Below are positions 17,830 through 36,649 of a stretch of DNA of 64,000 nt, in pieces. Made by a program: the position numbers and the translations under genes. Position 1 is the stretch's first letter; each line of letters opens with the position of its first letter. The notes under the pieces are model-generated. The model was not told where the DNA came from. It searched no databases and saw nothing but the letters and a program-made list of their open reading frames with translations. Origin of the DNA: Candidatus Gastranaerophilus phascolarcticola (lineage in GTDB: Bacteria; Cyanobacteriota; Vampirovibrionia; Gastranaerophilales; Gastranaerophilaceae); contig MOYE01000003.1 of assembly GCA_001899335.1 (NCBI GenBank), forward strand, positions 195,214 through 259,213, given 5' to 3'.

Positions 17830-20800
17830 TTATTCTTGTTCTTGCTGTTCTTCTGTTGCTTCTGCAAGACTTTCTAAAAACTCTCCTGTCTCTTCTGCTT
17901 CAAGGTCTATTGGTTCGCCGTTTTGAATTTTAGCCATAAGCTCGTCACTTATCTGAATACCATAGTTTTTCGGATCGACATCAAACGGGAAGAACATTTC
18001 GTGTTTTTGGGTTATAGACATTGCCTGTTCGATACAAAGCTGTGCTTTGTTGAGTTCTCTTCTAAACATAAACACTTTATAAAGATTATAATTTAATAAC
18101 ATAATTAACAATTCACTATGCAGTCTGTTTTTTTCAAGCTGGATAATTGAGTTGTTAATTACACCGTAAGCGACATCGTATTCTTTTTGTCTAATGTGGA
18201 TATTGCTCATAAAGTACCAGGCAAGAAGTTCAACGCCAGCCATGCCTTTGGCTTGGGCTGTGTTAATCACATCGTAAAGAATATGAGTTGCTTTTTCAAT
18301 TGAATTTATTCTTATGTAAGCGTTTGCAATAAACAAGTCGCAGATTGATTCAATTTTGTGGAGCATACAGTTTTTAGCGTTAATTTTTGCTCTGTAAATA
18401 TCTGTTGCGAACTTTTTCGGATCTTCAAAATTGAATGCGAACGCTGAAATTATGAATGAAATCGCTGGTGAGAACCTGTCGGTTGCAGCTATTTCTATTT
18501 CCGGAACTTCCTGTAACTTACCTTGTACCAATTGTTCCAAAATTACGAAGTATTGATATGATGACGGCAATTGTGGAAGGTCTTGTCTTACAAGTTCTAA
18601 GAATTGACCGACATTTCCGGCAAGCAGACAGATATTGCAAATTGCAATGTAACCGACTGTATCGTAGAGCATTGCTATAAAATCTGTACCCTCCATATCG
18701 TCAGGTTTTAACGTTTCGATATTTTCCGGTGTTACATATTCTAAAATTTTATATCCAATATCCAAACAATCTTTCAACGCTCCCAGGTTGAAGAGGATTA
18801 CGATATGCACCAATGACATAAGGAAGAAGTTTTTATCAAAATTCGGATTGTTCGGATCAATAGATGCGTTAGGCAGCAGCGAGAGAACTTTGTGCATAAG
18901 TTCAAGACACTTGTTGTAGTCGCCTTCTTGCAAGCCGGCTTTAATCATTTTGATACAAAGTTCAACAATTTTTTCTTTCTCGTCGAGACGTTCAAGGTTT
19001 TTAAGCGTATTTTCAGCAATTTCACTTGTTTTATCAGGAATAACCTCAAAAATATTGTTGGAAATCGCGTTGTACATTTGGTCCTTAAATTCATCCGCGT
19101 TCTCAACAAGGTTGTATTCCTCGTTCTGACTAACAAGGTCAATCATTCTTTGTGCACAGTTCAAATATGAGCAGAAATCGCCCAATGAAAGGTTAATATT
19201 CGCAAGTTGTTCCCATTGCTCAAACTCTGCCTTGTGGTCGCCTAAAAGGTTATACAGATATGCTTTTGTCGGGCTTGGAATATTTTCATCAAAAACTTTT
19301 TCAAATAATTCGCCCGCAACTTCTTTTAAGTAATCCTGGTTCATTGTTTCAAGAAGATTTTCTTTTAACAGGTTGTAATTCGGGAAGTAGAAACAGTTAT
19401 TATAATAATAAATATAACCCATTGCGGAAAGCCTGTTAATCAGGTCTTCACTGTTTTCATAGCCGAGTGAATCCATCGTTTTGACGTCAACACGGGTTCC
19501 TAAAAGCATCATTGATGCTAAGAATTTCAACATTTCTTTTTCGTCTTTCATCAAGTTGAGACGTCTAACCAAAAGTTTGTTTAATGAAGACGGAATAAGG
19601 ATAGTTTCAGCTTTTGCAAGTTTTAAACCGTCATCTGTAATCTTGATAACTTCAAGTTCCAAAAGGTATTGAAGCGCGAAATCAAGGAATAAAATACTTC
19701 CGCACGCGTATTTTGCAATACGTTGAAGATAAAAACTATCCAAAATGTTTTTGTACAAATCTTTATTATCCGCGATAATTTTTTCAAACGGTGTTGGTTT
19801 GAGAAGAATTTCGCAGTAGTAAGGCTTGCTAAGAAGGAAACTTGAATTTTTATGCAGTGAAAATTTCTTGTTATAAGAGATTAAATAGCTTATATCAAGT
19901 TCTTCAAAGACTTCCAAAACATGGCGCATAATGTCGAGTGAGCCGGCATCTATTTTTTCAAAGTCTTCAATAAAGATAAGACTGTTCGGAATTGCCTGCA
20001 AAAGGGAGGCAAAAATATCATAATATTTGAACCTTGTTTCTAAAACATCTTCATCATTGTGCTGATTTAGAGTAATTAAATCTCTAATAATCAGGTCAGG
20101 GTCGATGTTTTTAAACATCGTAAAGTCGTTAGTCGAAAATAGTTTTTGCGAAACCGTGTATTCAAAAATCGCGGCAACTAAATCTCTAAAGAAAGAATAC
20201 GGAGCGTATTTCATATCATCGTAGCAGGTTATGCTGATAATATTTTTGTAAAGCCCGAGGTTTTCAATTTCGTTAATGATTTTGAGTGAATACGGCTTGT
20301 AAATCTCGTCGGTTTTAATCGCTAAAATACCTTTCGGATAAGCCTGAAGCCTGTTAACCATGTGCAGAAGCACATCGGCATTTTCAATCCGCATAAATTC
20401 ACTCTGAACATCTTCCAACCCGATTGTTTCCATGTCATAAATCGCATCCGGATCTTTTTTAGCTTCCATTTTGCGCAATGCCTGACCGTCAATTTTGTCC
20501 TGCTCCATAAGCATGTTTTGAACAAAGTTTGGAATTTGTATTTCATCCGGTTCGTCATAAACATCCACGAGTTCTATTTTGTCTTTGACTTTTGCCTCGT
20601 AGAACATAACCATTTGTCCGTTAACCATAACGGAATCAAGTTGTTCAAAGTCATATTCGTTTTTCAATACATCATAAACAGATGAATCTGTGATTACCTG
20701 AAAAGCCGTTAAAATTTGTTCTTCCGGAGAAAGTTTGTCGTGGTTAACGAAACTTACGTTAAAATCAGATTTAACAGAGCGCGGATTGTCTGAAGTTTCT

Positions 20801-21369
20801 TTTTTAACAAGCGAAATATTACATCTGATTGTACAATTCTTTTTATGCGAAAGTTTACAGTTAAGTTTTGTTATTTCCTGAAGAAGGATAAGCGCCGTTT
20901 CCATTGCTTGTGCTGCGGAACTTGAGAACGTATATTCTTTTGTAAAACGAATTATGTAAGAATTACCGTAAATTCTGCATTTATTTTTAGTCTTTTTCGC
21001 AACATCCTTGATAATTTTATCAGTGTTTGATTTGAACTTGTTAAGCAATTTTGACGAACCGATATAGTTTTTCATGTCGTCAATGTTTGGCAAATCAACA
21101 ATCATCATCGTGTAAATATCAGTGTTTGCATCGTTTAGTATACAAGATTGCTCTGTATCAAATCCGCATTTTGCACACTTTCCGTTGATATTAGGAACGA
21201 TTTTGCCGCAGTTGTTGCATTTAACAAGAATAGGGAACCCGCATTTTTTGCAGGAGTTTGAAGTATTGACCGTTCTGCAAACAGGACAAATCAATTTTAA
21301 GACCTTCTTACAATTCGGACAGGTCATTGCATTATCATCAACTTCATAACCGCATTTTGGACATTCCAT
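17830..21369 (-). CDS. Multidomain protein: zinc ribbons, cyclase-homology-like region, STAND-NTPase-like region, helical repeats
   Basis: CPKCG/CPNCKK, CPVC/CKKCG, CNNCG/CAKCG pairs; Walker-B-like LIFIEDFEKIDAGSLDIM; no recognisable GxxxxGK[ST]. Confidence 0.8.
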   Translation of the reverse strand: MECPKCGYEVDDNAMTCPNCKKVLKLICPVCRTVNTSNSCKKCGFPILVKCNNCGKIVPNINGKCAKCGFDTEQSCILNDANTDIYTMMIVDLPNIDDMKNYIGSSKLLNKFKSNTDKIIKDVAKKTKNKCRIYGNSYIIRFTKEYTFSSSAAQAMETALILLQEITKLNCKLSHKKNCTIRCNISLVKKETSDNPRSVKSDFNVSFVNHDKLSPEEQILTAFQVITDSSVYDVLKNEYDFEQLDSVMVNGQMVMFYEAKVKDKIELVDVYDEPDEIQIPNFVQNMLMEQDKIDGQALRKMEAKKDPDAIYDMETIGLEDVQSEFMRIENADVLLHMVNRLQAYPKGILAIKTDEIYKPYSLKIINEIENLGLYKNIISITCYDDMKYAPYSFFRDLVAAIFEYTVSQKLFSTNDFTMFKNIDPDLIIRDLITLNQHNDEDVLETRFKYYDIFASLLQAIPNSLIFIEDFEKIDAGSLDIMRHVLEVFEELDISYLISYNKKFSLHKNSSFLLSKPYYCEILLKPTPFEKIIADNKDLYKNILDSFYLQRIAKYACGSILFLDFALQYLLELEVIKITDDGLKLAKAETILIPSSLNKLLVRRLNLMKDEKEMLKFLASMMLLGTRVDVKTMDSLGYENSEDLINRLSAMGYIYYYNNCFYFPNYNLLKENLLETMNQDYLKEVAGELFEKVFDENIPSPTKAYLYNLLGDHKAEFEQWEQLANINLSLGDFCSYLNCAQRMIDLVSQNEEYNLVENADEFKDQMYNAISNNIFEVIPDKTSEIAENTLKNLERLDEKEKIVELCIKMIKAGLQEGDYNKCLELMHKVLSLLPNASIDPNNPNFDKNFFLMSLVHIVILFNLGALKDCLDIGYKILEYVTPENIETLKPDDMEGTDFIAMLYDTVGYIAICNICLLAGNVGQFLELVRQDLPQLPSSYQYFVILEQLVQGKLQEVPEIEIAATDRFSPAISFIISAFAFNFEDPKKFATDIYRAKINAKNCMLHKIESICDLFIANAYIRINSIEKATHILYDVINTAQAKGMAGVELLAWYFMSNIHIRQKEYDVAYGVINNSIIQLEKNRLHSELLIMLLNYNLYKVFMFRRELNKAQLCIEQAMSITQKHEMFFPFDVDPKNYGIQISDELMAKIQNGEPIDLEAEETGEFLESLAEATEEQQEQE

Positions 21370-24580: not shown

Positions 24581-25168
24581 ATGAATATATGTCTCTTTTG
24601 CGGAACGTTTAATCCTATTCATAATGCGCATTTGAGAATGGCTCAATATGTTTTAAGGAAGTTTAATTTTGAGAAAGTAATTTTTATTCCGGCGTGCATA
24701 CCACCGCATAAAACTGTGCAGGGCGGCACTTCTGAACAGCGTTTTGAAATGGTTAAACTTGCTATTGAGGGGCATAAGGGGTTTGAGGTTTCGGATATAG
24801 AGTTTAGGCTCGGGCAAACTTCTTATACTTATTTCACTATTCTTGAGCTGCAAAAAATTTATGGCACCGGTGAAAAATTTAATTTTATTATAGGCACTGA
24901 CGCGTTTGAAAAAATTGAGTCGTGGTATGAAGTCGATAAATTGAAGATGCTTGTAAAATTTATTGTTTCCCGTCGCGAAGACGATTGTAATTTAGCGCGT
25001 TTTGATTATTTGAGGGAAAAAGGTTTTGATTTTGACTTTACAAACCTTGCGTTTTATGATATTTCTTCAACAGAATTAAGAGATAAAATTGCGTGCGGGG
25101 AAAGTATTTCCAACCTTGTTCCGCAAAAAGTTGAGGATTATATTGTTGAAAACGGCTTGTATAGATGA
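24581..25168 (+). CDS. nadD: Nicotinate-nucleotide adenylyltransferase
   Basis: FCGTFNPIHNAHLRMA, FIPACIPPHK, FIIGTDAFEKIESW, ISSTELRDKI. Confidence 0.96.
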   Translation: MNICLFCGTFNPIHNAHLRMAQYVLRKFNFEKVIFIPACIPPHKTVQGGTSEQRFEMVKLAIEGHKGFEVSDIEFRLGQTSYTYFTILELQKIYGTGEKFNFIIGTDAFEKIESWYEVDKLKMLVKFIVSRREDDCNLARFDYLREKGFDFDFTNLAFYDISSTELRDKIACGESISNLVPQKVEDYIVENGLYR

Positions 25169-25730
25169 AATTAAGGAATGGTTAAGGTTAAATTTGACTG
25201 CGGAAAAATATGTTCATTCACTTGGAACAGCAGAAGCGGCAAGAGCAATTGCTAAAAAATGCGGTTATGATGAAGAAAAAGCATATTTTGCAGGTTTAGT
25301 TCATGATTGCGCTAAAAACCTTTCTCACGAGGAACTCCTTGCTCTGATTGAGCGCGCGCCGTTTGAACTTCAGGAGGGTGAGACCTGTAACGGAAAAATT
25401 CTCCATGCTCCGGCTGGTGCTGTTTTCGCACGTGAAAAGTTTGAAATTGAGGATGAAGAAATCCTTTCTGCTGTTAGGTGGCATACTTTAGGTCGTGTCG
25501 GGATGACGGATTTAGAAAAAATAATTTTTCTTGCTGACAAAATAGAACCCGAAACCCGCGGGCGCGAAACGTATGAAGAGCGTCTTAAATCCCTTGATAT
25601 ACCTGGCGGGCTCGAAAATGAAATTTTGGCATGCTATTCATACACAATAAAAAGTCTTGTTGACAGGCAATTAAAAATTTGTTCGCAAACAATTGAAGTT
25701 TACAATTATCTGTTATCATTTGCTAAATAA
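25146..25730 (+). CDS. HD-domain hydrolase, YqeK-like (Ap4A hydrolase family)
   Basis: YVHSLGTAEAARAIA, AGLVHDCAKNL, WHTLGRVGM, FLADKIEP; probable TTG start overlapping nadD. Confidence 0.92.
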   Translation: MKTACIDEIKEWLRLNLTAEKYVHSLGTAEAARAIAKKCGYDEEKAYFAGLVHDCAKNLSHEELLALIERAPFELQEGETCNGKILHAPAGAVFAREKFEIEDEEILSAVRWHTLGRVGMTDLEKIIFLADKIEPETRGRETYEERLKSLDIPGGLENEILACYSYTIKSLVDRQLKICSQTIEVYNYLLSFAK

Positions 25731-25772: not shown

Positions 25773-27839
25773 ATGAAAATATTGGAGATAAAAAATAGTT
25801 TAGTTAAAATTTCTTATGAAGTAGAGGACAATTTAGCGCTTTCTGGCTTTGCGATTATTGAAGATTCCAATACGCCTTATGTTGCGCAAGTGGTGAATTT
25901 AAAAGCTGAAAACGGCAGAAATTTTGCGGTTCTCAAACTTTTATTTACTTTTAATACTGACGGTGTTCTGAAAAATTACAACGGAACGATTCCGTCACTT
26001 GAAGCTACAATTACAAAGCTGCCTTCCGAAGAATTATTGAGCATTTTGCCAATGACGCATCCTGTTTATCTCGGACTTTTAGCACAGCAGGAAGTTCCGT
26101 TTAAGCTGGATTCTTCCGTGCTTGAATCAAATCTTTTAATTTGCTCCAACAATGTTGATAACACCAGCAAACTTCTAAGTAATATTTTACCGCAAATGGT
26201 TGAAGAGGGTAAAAAAGTTGTTCTCCTTGACGTGAACGGTGATTTTTCCTCTGAAGAAAACTTCATTTTCGGTAAAAACTTTAAACTTCCGCTCAATTCA
26301 CAGTTTTTAGATTATATTTTTGAAAACGATTTAGAAGGCGTTGAACCGGTTAGTAAAGCGGTTATTCAGGATATTTTTAAAGAAGTTCAGGATTATATGG
26401 AAAACCTTCCGCAAGGATATCTTCCGATTGACCTCTTTATAAATGTTGTTGAACAACAGTACAAAGAAACCGGTATCGCGGAACTTGTTCTTTTGAAAAA
26501 TAAACTCCTTAAATATCAGGAATCAAATATTTTTGCGGCTGGAAACGACGATATCAATATGTTCAGAAACAAAGTCGCACATTCTGATTCCTTAATCGTT
26601 GACATCTCTAACGTTGATGTTGCGTTGCAAAAGCTGCTTATCCCGCATCTTTTTGACTGCATTTCAACAGTTAACGCGGATACTTTTGTTCTCGTAACGA
26701 TGAACAACGATGTTGCAGATAAACGCCTTCTTAGAAAAACTTTGGAATTTAAAAACATTTATACAACAATTATTTGCGGTCATGAATTTAAGTACTTACC
26801 GGATTTGAAACAGATTATCCAAAACCTTATTCTTTTTGCACCGCAAACATTACAGCACGATTTCGCAAATTATAACACTTTCCTTAATAAATTGAATGTT
26901 GAGGAATTTGTAGTTTACGGTCCTGCAACTCAAAATATGCCGTTTATTGTTCAGGTTAAGCCTTACGAAGAGCTTATTGAACTTGATAAACAAATGGAAG
27001 AAGAGGAACCTCAAGAAGTTGTTGAAACCGAAGAAACCGAAGAACCGGAGGTCGTTTCTTATGAAGAACCTGCGATTATAGATGTTGAGCCGGAAGAACC
27101 GACCCTTACAGAACCGGAAGAAGAACCAGAGGTCGTAGAACTTAACGAAGCTCCGGAATTTGAAAGCGAAAGTGAGGATGTTGAATTGCCTCCCTTTCAA
27201 GATGAACAATCATTCCTTTCTGACGTTGACGAAACTTCTACATTTGAACAAGAAGCTCTCGAAGATAGAGAAACTTTGGAGGAACAGGTAGCAAAAGATG
27301 TAGATGCTGCTCTTTATCGCAAATTTGAAGAGGAATCTTTAGAAACTGAAAACGATGTTAACCCTGAAATTTTGCTTGATGAAGAAGAACCTGAACTTTC
27401 AGACAGTGATTTAGATTTTATTCAATCAATGCCGATGGAAGATAATACACAGGAAGTTTATTCTTCAGAAGAGTTTTTACAAGAGGAAGAACAGCCATCA
27501 GTTGAGGAATTAGAGGCATCTGTATTAGATGAGGGCGCAATTGAAGAGCTTGAAGTAGATTCTACGCCTGATTTTATAGACGAAGATGCAGATGATGAGT
27601 CTCAAATCGTGCCGATTTATACACCTGAAGAAATAAATGAAAGTAATGATGCGCCGTTATTTGAATCAGGGGATGTCGTAACACACCCTAAATACGGTCA
27701 GGGTGTTGTTGAAAAGATGATTAACTACGGAAATAAAACGCTTTGTTCAATCAGCTTTGTTAACATCGGCAGAAGACTTCTTGATCCGAATTTGTCAGAG
27801 TTAACACTTGTTAGCCGTGACGGTGTAATCGTTAGTTAG
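25773..27839 (+). CDS. HerA-like (degenerate P-loop) protein with acidic linker and C-terminal PcrA/UvrD-type Tudor-like domain
   Basis: HerA-like order: YLGLLAQQEVPFKLDSSVLESNLLICS...VVLLDVNGDFS and SLIVDISNVD; E-rich linker; FESGDVVTHPKYGQGVVEKM. Confidence 0.65.
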   Translation: MKILEIKNSLVKISYEVEDNLALSGFAIIEDSNTPYVAQVVNLKAENGRNFAVLKLLFTFNTDGVLKNYNGTIPSLEATITKLPSEELLSILPMTHPVYLGLLAQQEVPFKLDSSVLESNLLICSNNVDNTSKLLSNILPQMVEEGKKVVLLDVNGDFSSEENFIFGKNFKLPLNSQFLDYIFENDLEGVEPVSKAVIQDIFKEVQDYMENLPQGYLPIDLFINVVEQQYKETGIAELVLLKNKLLKYQESNIFAAGNDDINMFRNKVAHSDSLIVDISNVDVALQKLLIPHLFDCISTVNADTFVLVTMNNDVADKRLLRKTLEFKNIYTTIICGHEFKYLPDLKQIIQNLILFAPQTLQHDFANYNTFLNKLNVEEFVVYGPATQNMPFIVQVKPYEELIELDKQMEEEEPQEVVETEETEEPEVVSYEEPAIIDVEPEEPTLTEPEEEPEVVELNEAPEFESESEDVELPPFQDEQSFLSDVDETSTFEQEALEDRETLEEQVAKDVDAALYRKFEEESLETENDVNPEILLDEEEPELSDSDLDFIQSMPMEDNTQEVYSSEEFLQEEEQPSVEELEASVLDEGAIEELEVDSTPDFIDEDADDESQIVPIYTPEEINESNDAPLFESGDVVTHPKYGQGVVEKMINYGNKTLCSISFVNIGRRLLDPNLSELTLVSRDGVIVS

Positions 27840-32286: not shown

Positions 32287-35200
32287 TTATCGTGAAACAA
32301 GTGATAATTTTTCGCCGCAAACTGTTGTTGCCGGTGCAGCGTATGAAACCGCGCCAAACGATTTATACTGCGGGTTGTAGAGGAATTTTCTGCCTTTGAA
32401 TGATATATTTTCAACCTTACGTTTCGGGTCGTGGTACAAAATCATGGTGTTTCCGGTAATTTCAATAGGCGCCTCTTTGTACAAGCCGTCTGAATCTTTT
32501 ACTCTGTGTTTAATGCAGTATTTATTTTCGTCATTTTTTTCAACAGTATAAATGTTTTTCAAATCACTGTTATCTTCATTCGCGTCAAGGAATACTGTTT
32601 TGAGCGGCAAGCCGGCAGGAAGACCTACTGTCAGAGAGTGTCGTGGTCTCTCATCTTGTGACAAATCAATTTTATCAAGTGTAACAGTATTAGGGGTAAG
32701 TTCATCTAATGAACCGTGAACCTTATCCAAACCGCTTACGTTAAATAATGAAATCGTCATATAACCGGCAGTGTTTTCACGCAAAATTGTTGGAATTTGA
32801 ACATTTTCATTACCGTTATATGCGCCTTCCTGAAGTTTTAAGGTAAAAATAGCACCGTCGTTTAACGCTTGAAGTTCTGGGCGTTTACGTTGATACATTG
32901 TTTTTCTTAAATTATTATTATTTTCGACAACAAACATACGTCTGTCAGGGCTGTGTTTGTCAACCCATTCATTATGCAGGTACGAACGGTTTTGGAGAGT
33001 AACGTTTTTCGTTGCGTATTCAAAACCTGTTGAACCTAATTCATCGCCGGAATATAATGTCGGGTTACCCGGAAGTGCTACCAAAAATTCCATCATTGCG
33101 TTGTATTTCTGATATGCAGGCTTCATAATTCTTTCAAAAACTTTTTCTGAAAGTGTATTCAATTCTTTATCACTGATTTCAAACCCGGCTTTACGCGCGT
33201 TATCAAGTGTAAAATCAATTGCCATATCTATTGGTTTTACACCGAAAGAATCCATTTCGAACGGACTTCCGTTGAATGTTCCGTTTGCGATTTCAGTTAA
33301 GGATGTTTTAACAGCCTCTTTTAACAGGTGTCCTCTGTCTTCGCCAATGAAATTTTTGTCTACAAGGTCATCAATTTCAGCCATAAAACCGGTTTTCAAA
33401 GCGCTGACCATAGCAAGGTCTTTCGCACTGTAACGGCTCAAGTCATAACTGTCAACATCAGCCGGAACAGTGTCGTATTCGCCGGTGATAAGTTGTACCG
33501 CTTCTTCTCTGTAATCGTGACCGGTCCATTTGTTTTGGAGTCCGTGGAACATATCCATATTTAACGCAAGAGCGTGCAGCGCACGTGTGTTATCGTGGTT
33601 GTTCAGGAATGTATAAGAGTAAGTCAACGCCTGTAATGGAGCGGAACGCAAAAATCCGCTTTCAGGGTCAACTAATTGCATGTGGAGCTTTTTATCCAAG
33701 TAATTCCCGCCGTTTTCAGAATGCTGCCCCTCGTTGAAAGATTTAGCAAAAATTTCAGGTAATGTACTGAAATAATAATCATAGTTTGCAACTGAAGTCA
33801 GGTTTGAATCGGTAAGGAATTTACCGATTAAATTTGTTTTATTAGGATATCTTTTTGAACCTTGTCCGTATTCAGAGTAAATTTCGTTCATATCGGTAAG
33901 TTCTGCAACCATATAAGAACTTGGGTTTTCTTTGATTACATCTCTTGCGAATTTTTCCCAGAAAGATGTTACCTGACTGAAAATAGTATCAAAATCGGTT
34001 TCGCCATCGTTTCTTAAAGAATCTACGTCAGCAACGTCTTTTGCCGCGTCAATACGCCAGTCTAAACCGGATTGGGTTCTGTCAACAATGGCTTCAGCAA
34101 GTCTGAAACTTTGAGCATTTGTTCCTTTAAGTTTTTTCTTCAACGCGTCAGCGAGTGCTTCTTTGTCGCTTTCTGAAATATTTTTCAAGCCGGATTTAAC
34201 GCGTTTAATAAGCTGGTGCGCTTCGTCTTCCGGTGAAATTCCGTTTACACCGATGTCTTTAAGCGTAATTTTTTTAAGTCTTTCGTAATCGTAAGAGATA
34301 TCACCGTTGTCGTTTGTTTGGAAACGAGGTGCCTCGCATAAAGATTTGATTACGGCGTATTTTAGAATTTCTTCTGCAAGGTATGGAAGAACGTAGTTTC
34401 CGTATTCAGTGTTCTCCATTCCGTGGTGAATTTTTTCGTTTTCAGGGCGATCCTTGTGGTCGTTTAATCTATCAATAATATCAATTGCGAAATCCGTTAA
34501 AACGCCGGTTGTACGACCGTCATCACCTATAAATAATCGGTTTGTTTCGTTATAAACTTTTTCGTATTTTGGCTGTAAATGCGGGTTGCCAATTTTGTTG
34601 AGGAAGAATCTGTCATAAGTCATTTCTTCATCATAATCAGGATGATAATATTTAGGTTCGCCAATGTAATCTTCACGGCAAGAACGTTTTGTTATATAAG
34701 GTGTTGCAAAAACCGCTGAAATATCGTCACCAAATTCTATTGAATCTAATGGCATATTCATCATATATTGAGCAACTTGTACTTTAAATTCTTCCGTATT
34801 TTGGTTACCTTTAAGACCCTCATAGTTGTCGGTAAGAATATTTTTTACAGCTTCTTCTGAAAGGTTATTTTTTAATCTTGTAGGGAAAACGCCGGAATTA
34901 ACTTTTTTGATAATAGTTTTATATGCTTCTTTCGGGTCTTCCTCATCAATATGTTTAAGGTTTTGCGCTACGTGAAGATTTAAAATCTGGTTAGTTTTTC
35001 TTGTCCAGTAACGCGCTGAAGTTACAACGTAATCTTTTGCCTCGTTTGAAGCGTATTCAAGTTTTTGAACTTCTTCTTTTTGGTCGATACCTGGTTTAAT
35101 AGACAAAATATTGTCCATATCATTGTTGGAAAGGAAATAATGAATTTTTGCGATATCAAAGTTAGAGTTCCATGTATCAATGTTTCCCTCAATTTTGTTA

Positions 35201-36525
35201 TCTAACTGCATATTTGAGAATTGTGAAATAAATTTCGTTCCCATTCCGCTGTATAAGTTGATTTTAGCGGAACGTTCTTTGTTATGCTCGTTGAGAAGTT
35301 TAACGTTAATATCGTATTCATCAGCATCAATTTCAAAACGATAAGGAATTACGGTATCGTTGTGAGTCGCTTTTGAAAGCGGTTTATCAGAGAAATCTTT
35401 ATCGTATGCTTGAATCGGTTCTTGCGGATCAAGTTTTTTCGCATTAACCAAATCTTTATCATAAATTTCCAAATAAGTTGGTTTCTTTTCGTTATAGTTT
35501 TCGTTTTCTACCGGAACGTAGCTGCCTGTTGCATCCTGTTCGTAGAAGAATTTAGGGTTAACTAGTCTGTGTGTGATGAAATCAGTATTTTGAGAGAACA
35601 CACCAAAAAGAATTTGGTCATTAGGGTTCATACGGAACCAGTTGAAAAATGGTGATTCTTCTTTCCATTTTATAGCGTGGTTGAAGTGAATACCTTCCAA
35701 ACCTTCGTTTACAAACGCACCGTCAGAAACCAAACTTTTTCCTTTTGCAAAAAGAGATTTTGTTAAAGAGGTATAGTTGTTGATGTTTCCGAGTGAAAGT
35801 GCCATTTGCATACAGTTTTTGTTCCAGTAAGCGTGGTGGGTTCTGGAATCATCTGTAAATAGCGGTAAGCTGACAATTCTGTCGTAAGCATCCATATCGC
35901 CGCTTGCAAGTCTTTTTTCCATGCCGGCTAGCGAACCGCCCATTTTGTTTGAAAATAATCTTATGTTATGTCTTAAATCTTCGTAGTTTTCGTTGCGAAT
36001 AATATCGTTGTCAGCATCATAAACCCATTTAGGGTCAAGGCTGTCCGGAACCGCAAGGAGCATTGAACCCCCACGGCTTACGTCTGATGCCGGAACGTAA
36101 AGGTTATAAACATTTTCGTCGGTTAAATCTTCTCTGTCACCTCTGTCATCAAGGAGTGAACCTGCATCAACGCCGTATCTTTCAATGTTTCCGGTTCTTT
36201 TATTGACTAATTTGTAGTGGTAGGCAAAAGGTTCGTCTTCCATAACGCCAAATTCAGCGTGAATATTGACTCTGTTCTTGCCGGAGTATAGTTTTCTGCC
36301 GTCTTCTGAATTGTGGAGTAAATCAGTATATTTATCACCTGTAAGATAATAATTACCGTATTTGTCGCGTTCAACTACAGCAATTTCAAGGTAACAATCG
36401 GTTTCAGCCGGGTCAAACGGATATGAAAATTCTCCGGTGCGATAACCTTCGTCATTTTTAGTTGGCTTGTAGCCTTTAAATGCCATTTTATTAATATAGT
36501 TTGCAGACTCGAAATTTATTTTCAC
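32287..36525 (-). CDS. Very large GH13 alpha-amylase-like protein (~1412 aa)
   Basis: LVSDGAFVNEGLEGIHF, YMVAELTDMNEIY, FLNNHDNTRALHALALNMDMFHG, GNPTLYSGDELGSTGFE; GTG start with GGAGG RBS. Confidence 0.85.
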   Translation of the reverse strand: MKINFESANYINKMAFKGYKPTKNDEGYRTGEFSYPFDPAETDCYLEIAVVERDKYGNYYLTGDKYTDLLHNSEDGRKLYSGKNRVNIHAEFGVMEDEPFAYHYKLVNKRTGNIERYGVDAGSLLDDRGDREDLTDENVYNLYVPASDVSRGGSMLLAVPDSLDPKWVYDADNDIIRNENYEDLRHNIRLFSNKMGGSLAGMEKRLASGDMDAYDRIVSLPLFTDDSRTHHAYWNKNCMQMALSLGNINNYTSLTKSLFAKGKSLVSDGAFVNEGLEGIHFNHAIKWKEESPFFNWFRMNPNDQILFGVFSQNTDFITHRLVNPKFFYEQDATGSYVPVENENYNEKKPTYLEIYDKDLVNAKKLDPQEPIQAYDKDFSDKPLSKATHNDTVIPYRFEIDADEYDINVKLLNEHNKERSAKINLYSGMGTKFISQFSNMQLDNKIEGNIDTWNSNFDIAKIHYFLSNNDMDNILSIKPGIDQKEEVQKLEYASNEAKDYVVTSARYWTRKTNQILNLHVAQNLKHIDEEDPKEAYKTIIKKVNSGVFPTRLKNNLSEEAVKNILTDNYEGLKGNQNTEEFKVQVAQYMMNMPLDSIEFGDDISAVFATPYITKRSCREDYIGEPKYYHPDYDEEMTYDRFFLNKIGNPHLQPKYEKVYNETNRLFIGDDGRTTGVLTDFAIDIIDRLNDHKDRPENEKIHHGMENTEYGNYVLPYLAEEILKYAVIKSLCEAPRFQTNDNGDISYDYERLKKITLKDIGVNGISPEDEAHQLIKRVKSGLKNISESDKEALADALKKKLKGTNAQSFRLAEAIVDRTQSGLDWRIDAAKDVADVDSLRNDGETDFDTIFSQVTSFWEKFARDVIKENPSSYMVAELTDMNEIYSEYGQGSKRYPNKTNLIGKFLTDSNLTSVANYDYYFSTLPEIFAKSFNEGQHSENGGNYLDKKLHMQLVDPESGFLRSAPLQALTYSYTFLNNHDNTRALHALALNMDMFHGLQNKWTGHDYREEAVQLITGEYDTVPADVDSYDLSRYSAKDLAMVSALKTGFMAEIDDLVDKNFIGEDRGHLLKEAVKTSLTEIANGTFNGSPFEMDSFGVKPIDMAIDFTLDNARKAGFEISDKELNTLSEKVFERIMKPAYQKYNAMMEFLVALPGNPTLYSGDELGSTGFEYATKNVTLQNRSYLHNEWVDKHSPDRRMFVVENNNNLRKTMYQRKRPELQALNDGAIFTLKLQEGAYNGNENVQIPTILRENTAGYMTISLFNVSGLDKVHGSLDELTPNTVTLDKIDLSQDERPRHSLTVGLPAGLPLKTVFLDANEDNSDLKNIYTVEKNDENKYCIKHRVKDSDGLYKEAPIEITGNTMILYHDPKRKVENISFKGRKFLYNPQYKSFGAVSYAAPATTVCGEKLSLVSR

Positions 36526-36649
36526 GCAGATGCCTCCACCACACAATTATATTAGTCGGCTGAAAAAATTTTTTTGCCTTTTTCCGCCTATATAGAGGAA
36601 AATTTTTACAATTCTTAAAACATTATTCCGCGATGAGCGCGGGCGGTTT

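Follow-up and report, generated by a model that had tools for sequence, protein, structure and literature searches.

A HerA-fold protein without ATPase motifs and with a PcrA/UvrD-type Tudor tail in Gastranaerophilales and related Vampirovibrionia families

HerA is a hexameric DNA translocase (PF01935 with a HAS barrel, PF09378; S. solfataricus HerA, PDB 4d2i), built from an N-terminal barrel, a P-loop core, a helical insertion and C-terminal strands. In the DUF4297-HerA and Sir2-HerA anti-phage complexes (8zir, 8sub), HerA is bound to a separate partner protein. PcrA/UvrD is a repair helicase whose Tudor domain docks on RNA polymerase (RNAP) and UvrB. This Tudor (PF21196; 5dma, 6yi2, 7egs, 7egt) sits on an SF1 helicase. 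Each of the PcrA substitutions H681A, W684A, K712A and L714A strongly cuts RNAP binding (Sanders et al., PMC5397179), and PcrA uses a helicase-interaction motif in RpoB, [VIL]-D-x-x-T-G-E-[VIL]-[VILT] (PMC8318588). No description of a HerA-like body joined through an acidic linker to such a Tudor was found in the open-access literature; the BREX and DndH papers that mention both HerA and Tudor have the two domains on different proteins. But what would a HerA-like body without its ATPase motifs do with the tail of a helicase?

Such a protein, called X here, is encoded in the window, that is, the whole stretch of 64,000 nucleotides of Candidatus Gastranaerophilus phascolarcticola DNA that was analysed. 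Its ORF (25773..27839, + strand) is intact, starts with ATG and encodes 688 aa, as the original prediction, made from the letters of the DNA, had described, and reads as a pseudo-HerA, an acidic linker and a PcrA-type Tudor. The N-terminal beta-rich barrel (25773..26060, +; residues 1-96, with AF2 strands within 2-83) takes the place of the HerA HAS barrel by Foldseek and by hhalign to HerA. It is followed by the HerA-like P-loop core without catalytic motifs (26061..26972, +; residues 97-400), assigned by AF2, Foldseek and HMMER, by a low-complexity linker defined by composition (26973..27656, +; residues 401-628), and by the PcrA/UvrD-type Tudor domain (27657..27800, +; residues 629-676), recognised by profile, Pfam and predicted structure. 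The linker is acidic, as had been noticed: counted from residue 396 to the last 55 residues it has 39% D/E and 3% K/R. Its length among X homologues ranges from 149 to 1707 aa. It contains the stretch ELSDSDLDFI, which reads LTEDDLDFI in relatives and has a related form in 24 of 60 homologues (motif at 27396-27422, its core DLDFI at 27408..27422, +). This is possibly a docking motif.

How secure is the HerA fold? Compared with Pfam on its own, X gives weak, sub-cut-off matches (PcrA_UvrD_tudor E 0.0059; CarD/RID 0.024; DUF87 3.1); the firm matches to HerA and the UvrD CTD came from profiles built on X homologues. The AF2 model of residues 1-400, based on a 25-sequence alignment, has a mean pLDDT of 89.7 and a pTM of 0.85. 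Searched against the PDB with Foldseek, it has 4d2i_B as its top match (E 3.3e-17, TMq 0.69) and reaches a TMq of 0.73 with 8zir_Q; among the 50 matches listed the majority are named HerA or HerA complexes, and the remaining ones are titled merely 'bacterial protein' or 'anti-phage defense complex'. The profile of X homologues matches HerA 4d2i at E 1.5e-4 (HMMER), and hhalign of X with the HerAs of the same class spans 391 columns (probability 93.8, E 1.7e-7) and extends to the C-terminal strands. AF2, Foldseek and hhalign agree on a HAS barrel plus HerA P-loop fold, and the HerA fold proposed earlier survives structure prediction and search, the best PDB matches being HerA. Together with the tail described below, these models make the structural identity of X, a HerA-fold body with a Tudor tail, near certain. 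The body is shorter, at about 400 residues against 537-607 residues for the HerAs of the class. More distant homologues from three further families of the class (f4, f9 and f10) align poorly with HerA when taken as a group (hhalign, E 0.13), and they are assigned to HerA because they are linked to the f1 group (hhalign, E 1.8e-6).

X shares the HerA fold but not its ATPase site. HerA has Walker A, EEAH and D.H.EY, whereas X is without both Walkers, keeps only the D of D.H.EY and has gained a Tudor tail. HerA HLAILAATGSGKSNTVAVL aligns ungapped with the X consensus (HMMER), and X itself reads NLLICSNNVDNTSKLLSNI there. The former Walker A (26145..26168, +; residues 125-132) is SNNVDNTS, aligned without gaps to AATGSGKS of HerA, which bears out its reported absence. 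The former Walker B position (26679..26714, +; residues 303-314, DTFVLVTMNNDV) was placed by hhalign to the class HerAs and a motif census; the EEAH of HerA falls on FVLVTMNND of X and the motif is gone. The stretch first read as a Walker B (SLIVDISNVD...) aligns instead with the HerA strand that precedes Walker B. The loss of Walker A extends across homologues: GxxxxGK[ST], GxxGK[ST] and [DE]EAH occur in the first 450 residues of none of 60 X homologues, compared with 16 of 20 (GxxxxGK[ST]) and 20 of 20 ([DE]EAH) HerAs of the class, and the GxGKS columns and D.H.EY are invariant in a 14-row class HerA alignment (A5). Judged by its motifs, X would be catalytically dead, a part of the original prediction now strongly supported by their loss in 60/60. 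It does not qualify as a HerA translocase, since the ATPase motifs that define one were looked for and are absent. Four f4 members have a partial P-loop: GTCVAGKQ in L078 (GxxxxGK with Q in place of S/T), GNALGVKR in L077, GDSLEAKH in L076 and GPNFLLKY in L075; where HerA has EEAHKFL, L075 and L076 also show PENYL. These partial P-loops may represent stages of Walker A decay. D153, in the strand of HerA D.H.EY, is invariant in the 25 sequences of alignment A1 and nearly so in A4, and D277 is almost invariant in A1; these retained residues are structural. Could the fold, even with no canonical P-loop, still bind a nucleotide or some other ligand and signal through the Tudor? The conservation of D153 and the partly kept P-loops of f4 would suit such a sensor, but the window's lineage has lost Walker B and, from Walker A, both the glycines and the lysine, and a residual sensor seems quite improbable.

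X homologues are found in 141 of the 147 genomes of the window's GTDB family, and the gene is conserved over an entire branch of the cyanobacterial relatives that do not photosynthesise. Those of f4, f9 and f10, reached via the Tudor, have the same order of barrel, degenerate P-loop, low-complexity linker and Tudor, and the Tudor is present in all X homologues examined. The profile of the N-terminal domain (A1) has no match in other families of the class except f2. Class matches outside the order were considered as X homologues; they came via the Tudor domain and were mostly PcrA, the remainder leading to f4, f9 and f10. Across the phylum (196 genomes), the HerA profile A5, built from the class, matches 89 genomes, mainly of other classes plus f7, and the X profile A4 matches 85. 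These all belong to the window's family, of which one listed member, G042, is negative. The two overlap in G144 only, where the HerA match is partial (E 1.7e-21, profile positions 397-548). Within the class, the strong PF01935 matches listed in frames of 470-620 aa belong to f3, f6, f7 and two genomes of f5; f1, f4, f9 and f10 have no listed match of this kind.

In an RpoB tree of 25 rows, the sampled X lineages (f1, f4, f9 and f10) form one clade (support 98/97) flanked on either side by HerA lineages; a catalytic HerA persists in sister lineages and in photosynthetic cyanobacteria. The f5 rows of this tree are labelled 'neither', though the f5 genome G164 has HerA, there adjoining a RhuM/Fic-like gene. 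Because the X lineages form a single clade amid HerA lineages, one event of HerA-to-X conversion is the simplest account, although a single clade is one comparison and no statistical association. HerA also seems to be missing from f8 and from the majority of f5 genomes, all without X, and therefore HerA loss does not require X. No shared syntenic position of X and HerA was found, and no recognised common neighbours, in the loci compared, so the case for their orthology is built on fold, residual motifs and distribution. X likely descends from the phylum's HerA. A scan of viral contigs for close matches found no close relatives of X. Three f3 genomes (G162, G171 and G147) have a second, divergent rpoB beside the normal one (L145/L165, L147/L166 and L150/L167), scoring about 617-634 bits over the main segment.

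Is X still under selection? Within the genus, the linker has a dN/dS of 0.17-0.35, against 0.045-0.09 (about 0.06) for residues 1-400 and 0.016-0.043 for the Tudor; these ratios come from the pairs of L001 with L002-L006 that gave an estimate of dS, and they are approximate, as dS exceeds 1 in some of them. Such low ratios mean that X is not a relic. The weak single-sequence Pfam matches, all under the cut-offs, are what a non-functional remnant or a chance resemblance might give, but this is extremely improbable for a protein present in nearly the whole family, with a low dN/dS, a confidently modelled fold and a Tudor in all homologues examined.

The Tudor tail, also foreseen by the original prediction, is well defined. 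The X Tudor profile matches the PDB UvrD-CTD at E 2e-8, and PF21196 is matched by 31 of 31 X members, all at E 0.01 or better (best E 6.6e-9), the X of the window scoring 21.1 bits against a curated cut-off of 23.9. The predicted structure of its 80-residue C-terminal stretch is a five-stranded Tudor barrel with the C-terminal Tudor of PcrA as top structural match (5dma, TMt 0.84), followed by 9dqs (9dqs_B, TMt 0.86), 6yi2, 7egs (RNAP lobe/UvrD-CTD complex) and 7egt (UvrB complex). X has no SF1 helicase core: matches to PcrA/UvrD models cover the C-terminal tail alone. X and PcrA/UvrD thus have in common the Tudor fold and its binding residues (H, aromatic, F, K/R, L), which sit on an SF1 helicase in one case and on a pseudo-translocase, via an acidic linker, in the other. 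By the UvrD alignment and the numbering in PMC5397179, H638, Y641, F662, R668 and L670 of X align with H681, W684, F705, K712 and L714 of PcrA. Among X homologues H638 is H in 51/60, Y641 is Y/F in 59/60, R668 is R/K in 60/60, L670 is L in 59/60 (L/M) and F662 is invariant. Genomes with X also encode a PcrA bearing its own Tudor (at L134:826-3345(-) in the genome of the window). In many genomes of the window's family the PcrA Tudor has drifted (L169-L195), reading HEKLG and GKKAMD against HxKFG and GKKLLDP in other families; X keeps the binding-position residues where these have drifted.

Which protein does this Tudor bind? In the genome of the window, UvrB fits the helicase-interaction motif in full (IDNVTGEIL). 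So does an MnmE-like protein (L139:1224-2585(-)), near its C-terminus (LDEITGEVI); both proteins were named from sequence, and the genome was searched for the motif with a degenerate DNA pattern. The strict motif is found in none of 25 RpoBs, drawn from lineages with X, with HerA or with neither and from photosynthetic outgroups; many of them have a near-match in beta1 such as NRD[ST]GEIK, which is not confined to X lineages. On sequence grounds UvrB is the better-supported candidate partner, since it has the full motif and RpoB a near-match alone. RNAP would be a possible candidate through the beta1 NRD[ST]GEIK hairpin, and the Tudor may bind both. Could X then be a transcription tether, its Tudor holding RNAP beta and bringing the dead HerA body to RNAP during transcription, where it might, for instance, keep collisions or R-loops in check? 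Each of the four PcrA residues on which RNAP binding depends is matched by a conserved residue in X, 7egs is among the top structural matches of its Tudor, and X-lineage RpoBs offer the partial match in beta1. However, these RpoBs are without the strict motif, the hairpin is also present outside X lineages, and beta1 is the Mfd site, separate from the PcrA site (PMC8318588). The tether to transcription, put forward in the original prediction, is at present a tentative reading.

Alternatively, the Tudor might act as a decoy, filling the sites on UvrB or RNAP and so regulating how PcrA reaches them, while the HerA body would be a mere anchor or oligomerisation core. Free PcrA CTD does inhibit the PcrA-RNAP interaction (PMC8318588), UvrB has the motif, and X is intact at the positions where the PcrA Tudors of the family have drifted (HEKLG, GKKAMD). 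Yet a dN/dS near 0.06 over the 400-residue body suggests a role beyond anchoring, and the PcrAs of f4 retain the GKKLLDP tail despite X, so that a competitor is rather unlikely. We infer that X is best read as a scaffold or adaptor.

X is probably a dead member of the HerA fold, most likely descended from the HerA of cyanobacteria and related lineages, serving as an ATP-independent scaffold whose Tudor captures UvrB and/or RNAP beta. The ancestor of Gastranaerophilales and related Vampirovibrionia families would have lost Walker A, Walker B and other catalytic residues of HerA while keeping the fold, and would have acquired a PcrA/UvrD-type Tudor at the end of a long, flexible acidic tether. 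The HerA-fold body would then form an ATP-independent platform, perhaps one that is still oligomeric and close to DNA, and the tethered Tudor would catch proteins with a helicase-interaction hairpin (UvrB and/or RNAP beta) and hold them there. A bolder and doubtful extension is that the whole clade turned HerA into an adaptor of this kind, gathering the Tudor clients RNAP and UvrB, replacing HerA and partly assuming the docking role of PcrA. In X one could follow the decay of a DNA motor into a likely scaffold, with apparent intermediates in living relatives, and X would make the PcrA/UvrD Tudor a portable docking module beyond helicases. If X binds UvrB or RNAP, a repair or transcription factor of gut bacteria has been overlooked by family databases.

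The likeness to the DUF4297-HerA and Sir2-HerA complexes lies in a HerA-fold body that works with further domains or partners. In contrast to these systems, X occurs in almost every genome of its family, and Pfam scans of its neighbours turned up no effector gene. Upstream on the same strand lie a nadD-like gene (24581..25168, +; PF01467) and a yqeK-like HD-domain gene (25128..25730, +; PF01966); the latter ends 42 bp before X and may share an operon with it. This context was considered as a pointer to function and rejected, neither gene being found beside X at 20 more distant X loci (0/20). No conserved neighbour ties X to repair or transcription throughout the loci examined. Elsewhere in the window are a 1419-aa protein (32287-36546(-)) with no Pfam match at E 1e-5 and a 1179-aa protein (17830-21369(-)) with a double zinc ribbon as its only Pfam feature. 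At the f4 and f10 loci scanned by Pfam, X is flanked by RarA/Maf and IleRS-like genes. In both L076 (f4) and L080 (f10) it lies between a same-strand downstream IleRS-like class I tRNA synthetase and a divergent RarA/MgsA, and in L076 Maf comes after RarA.
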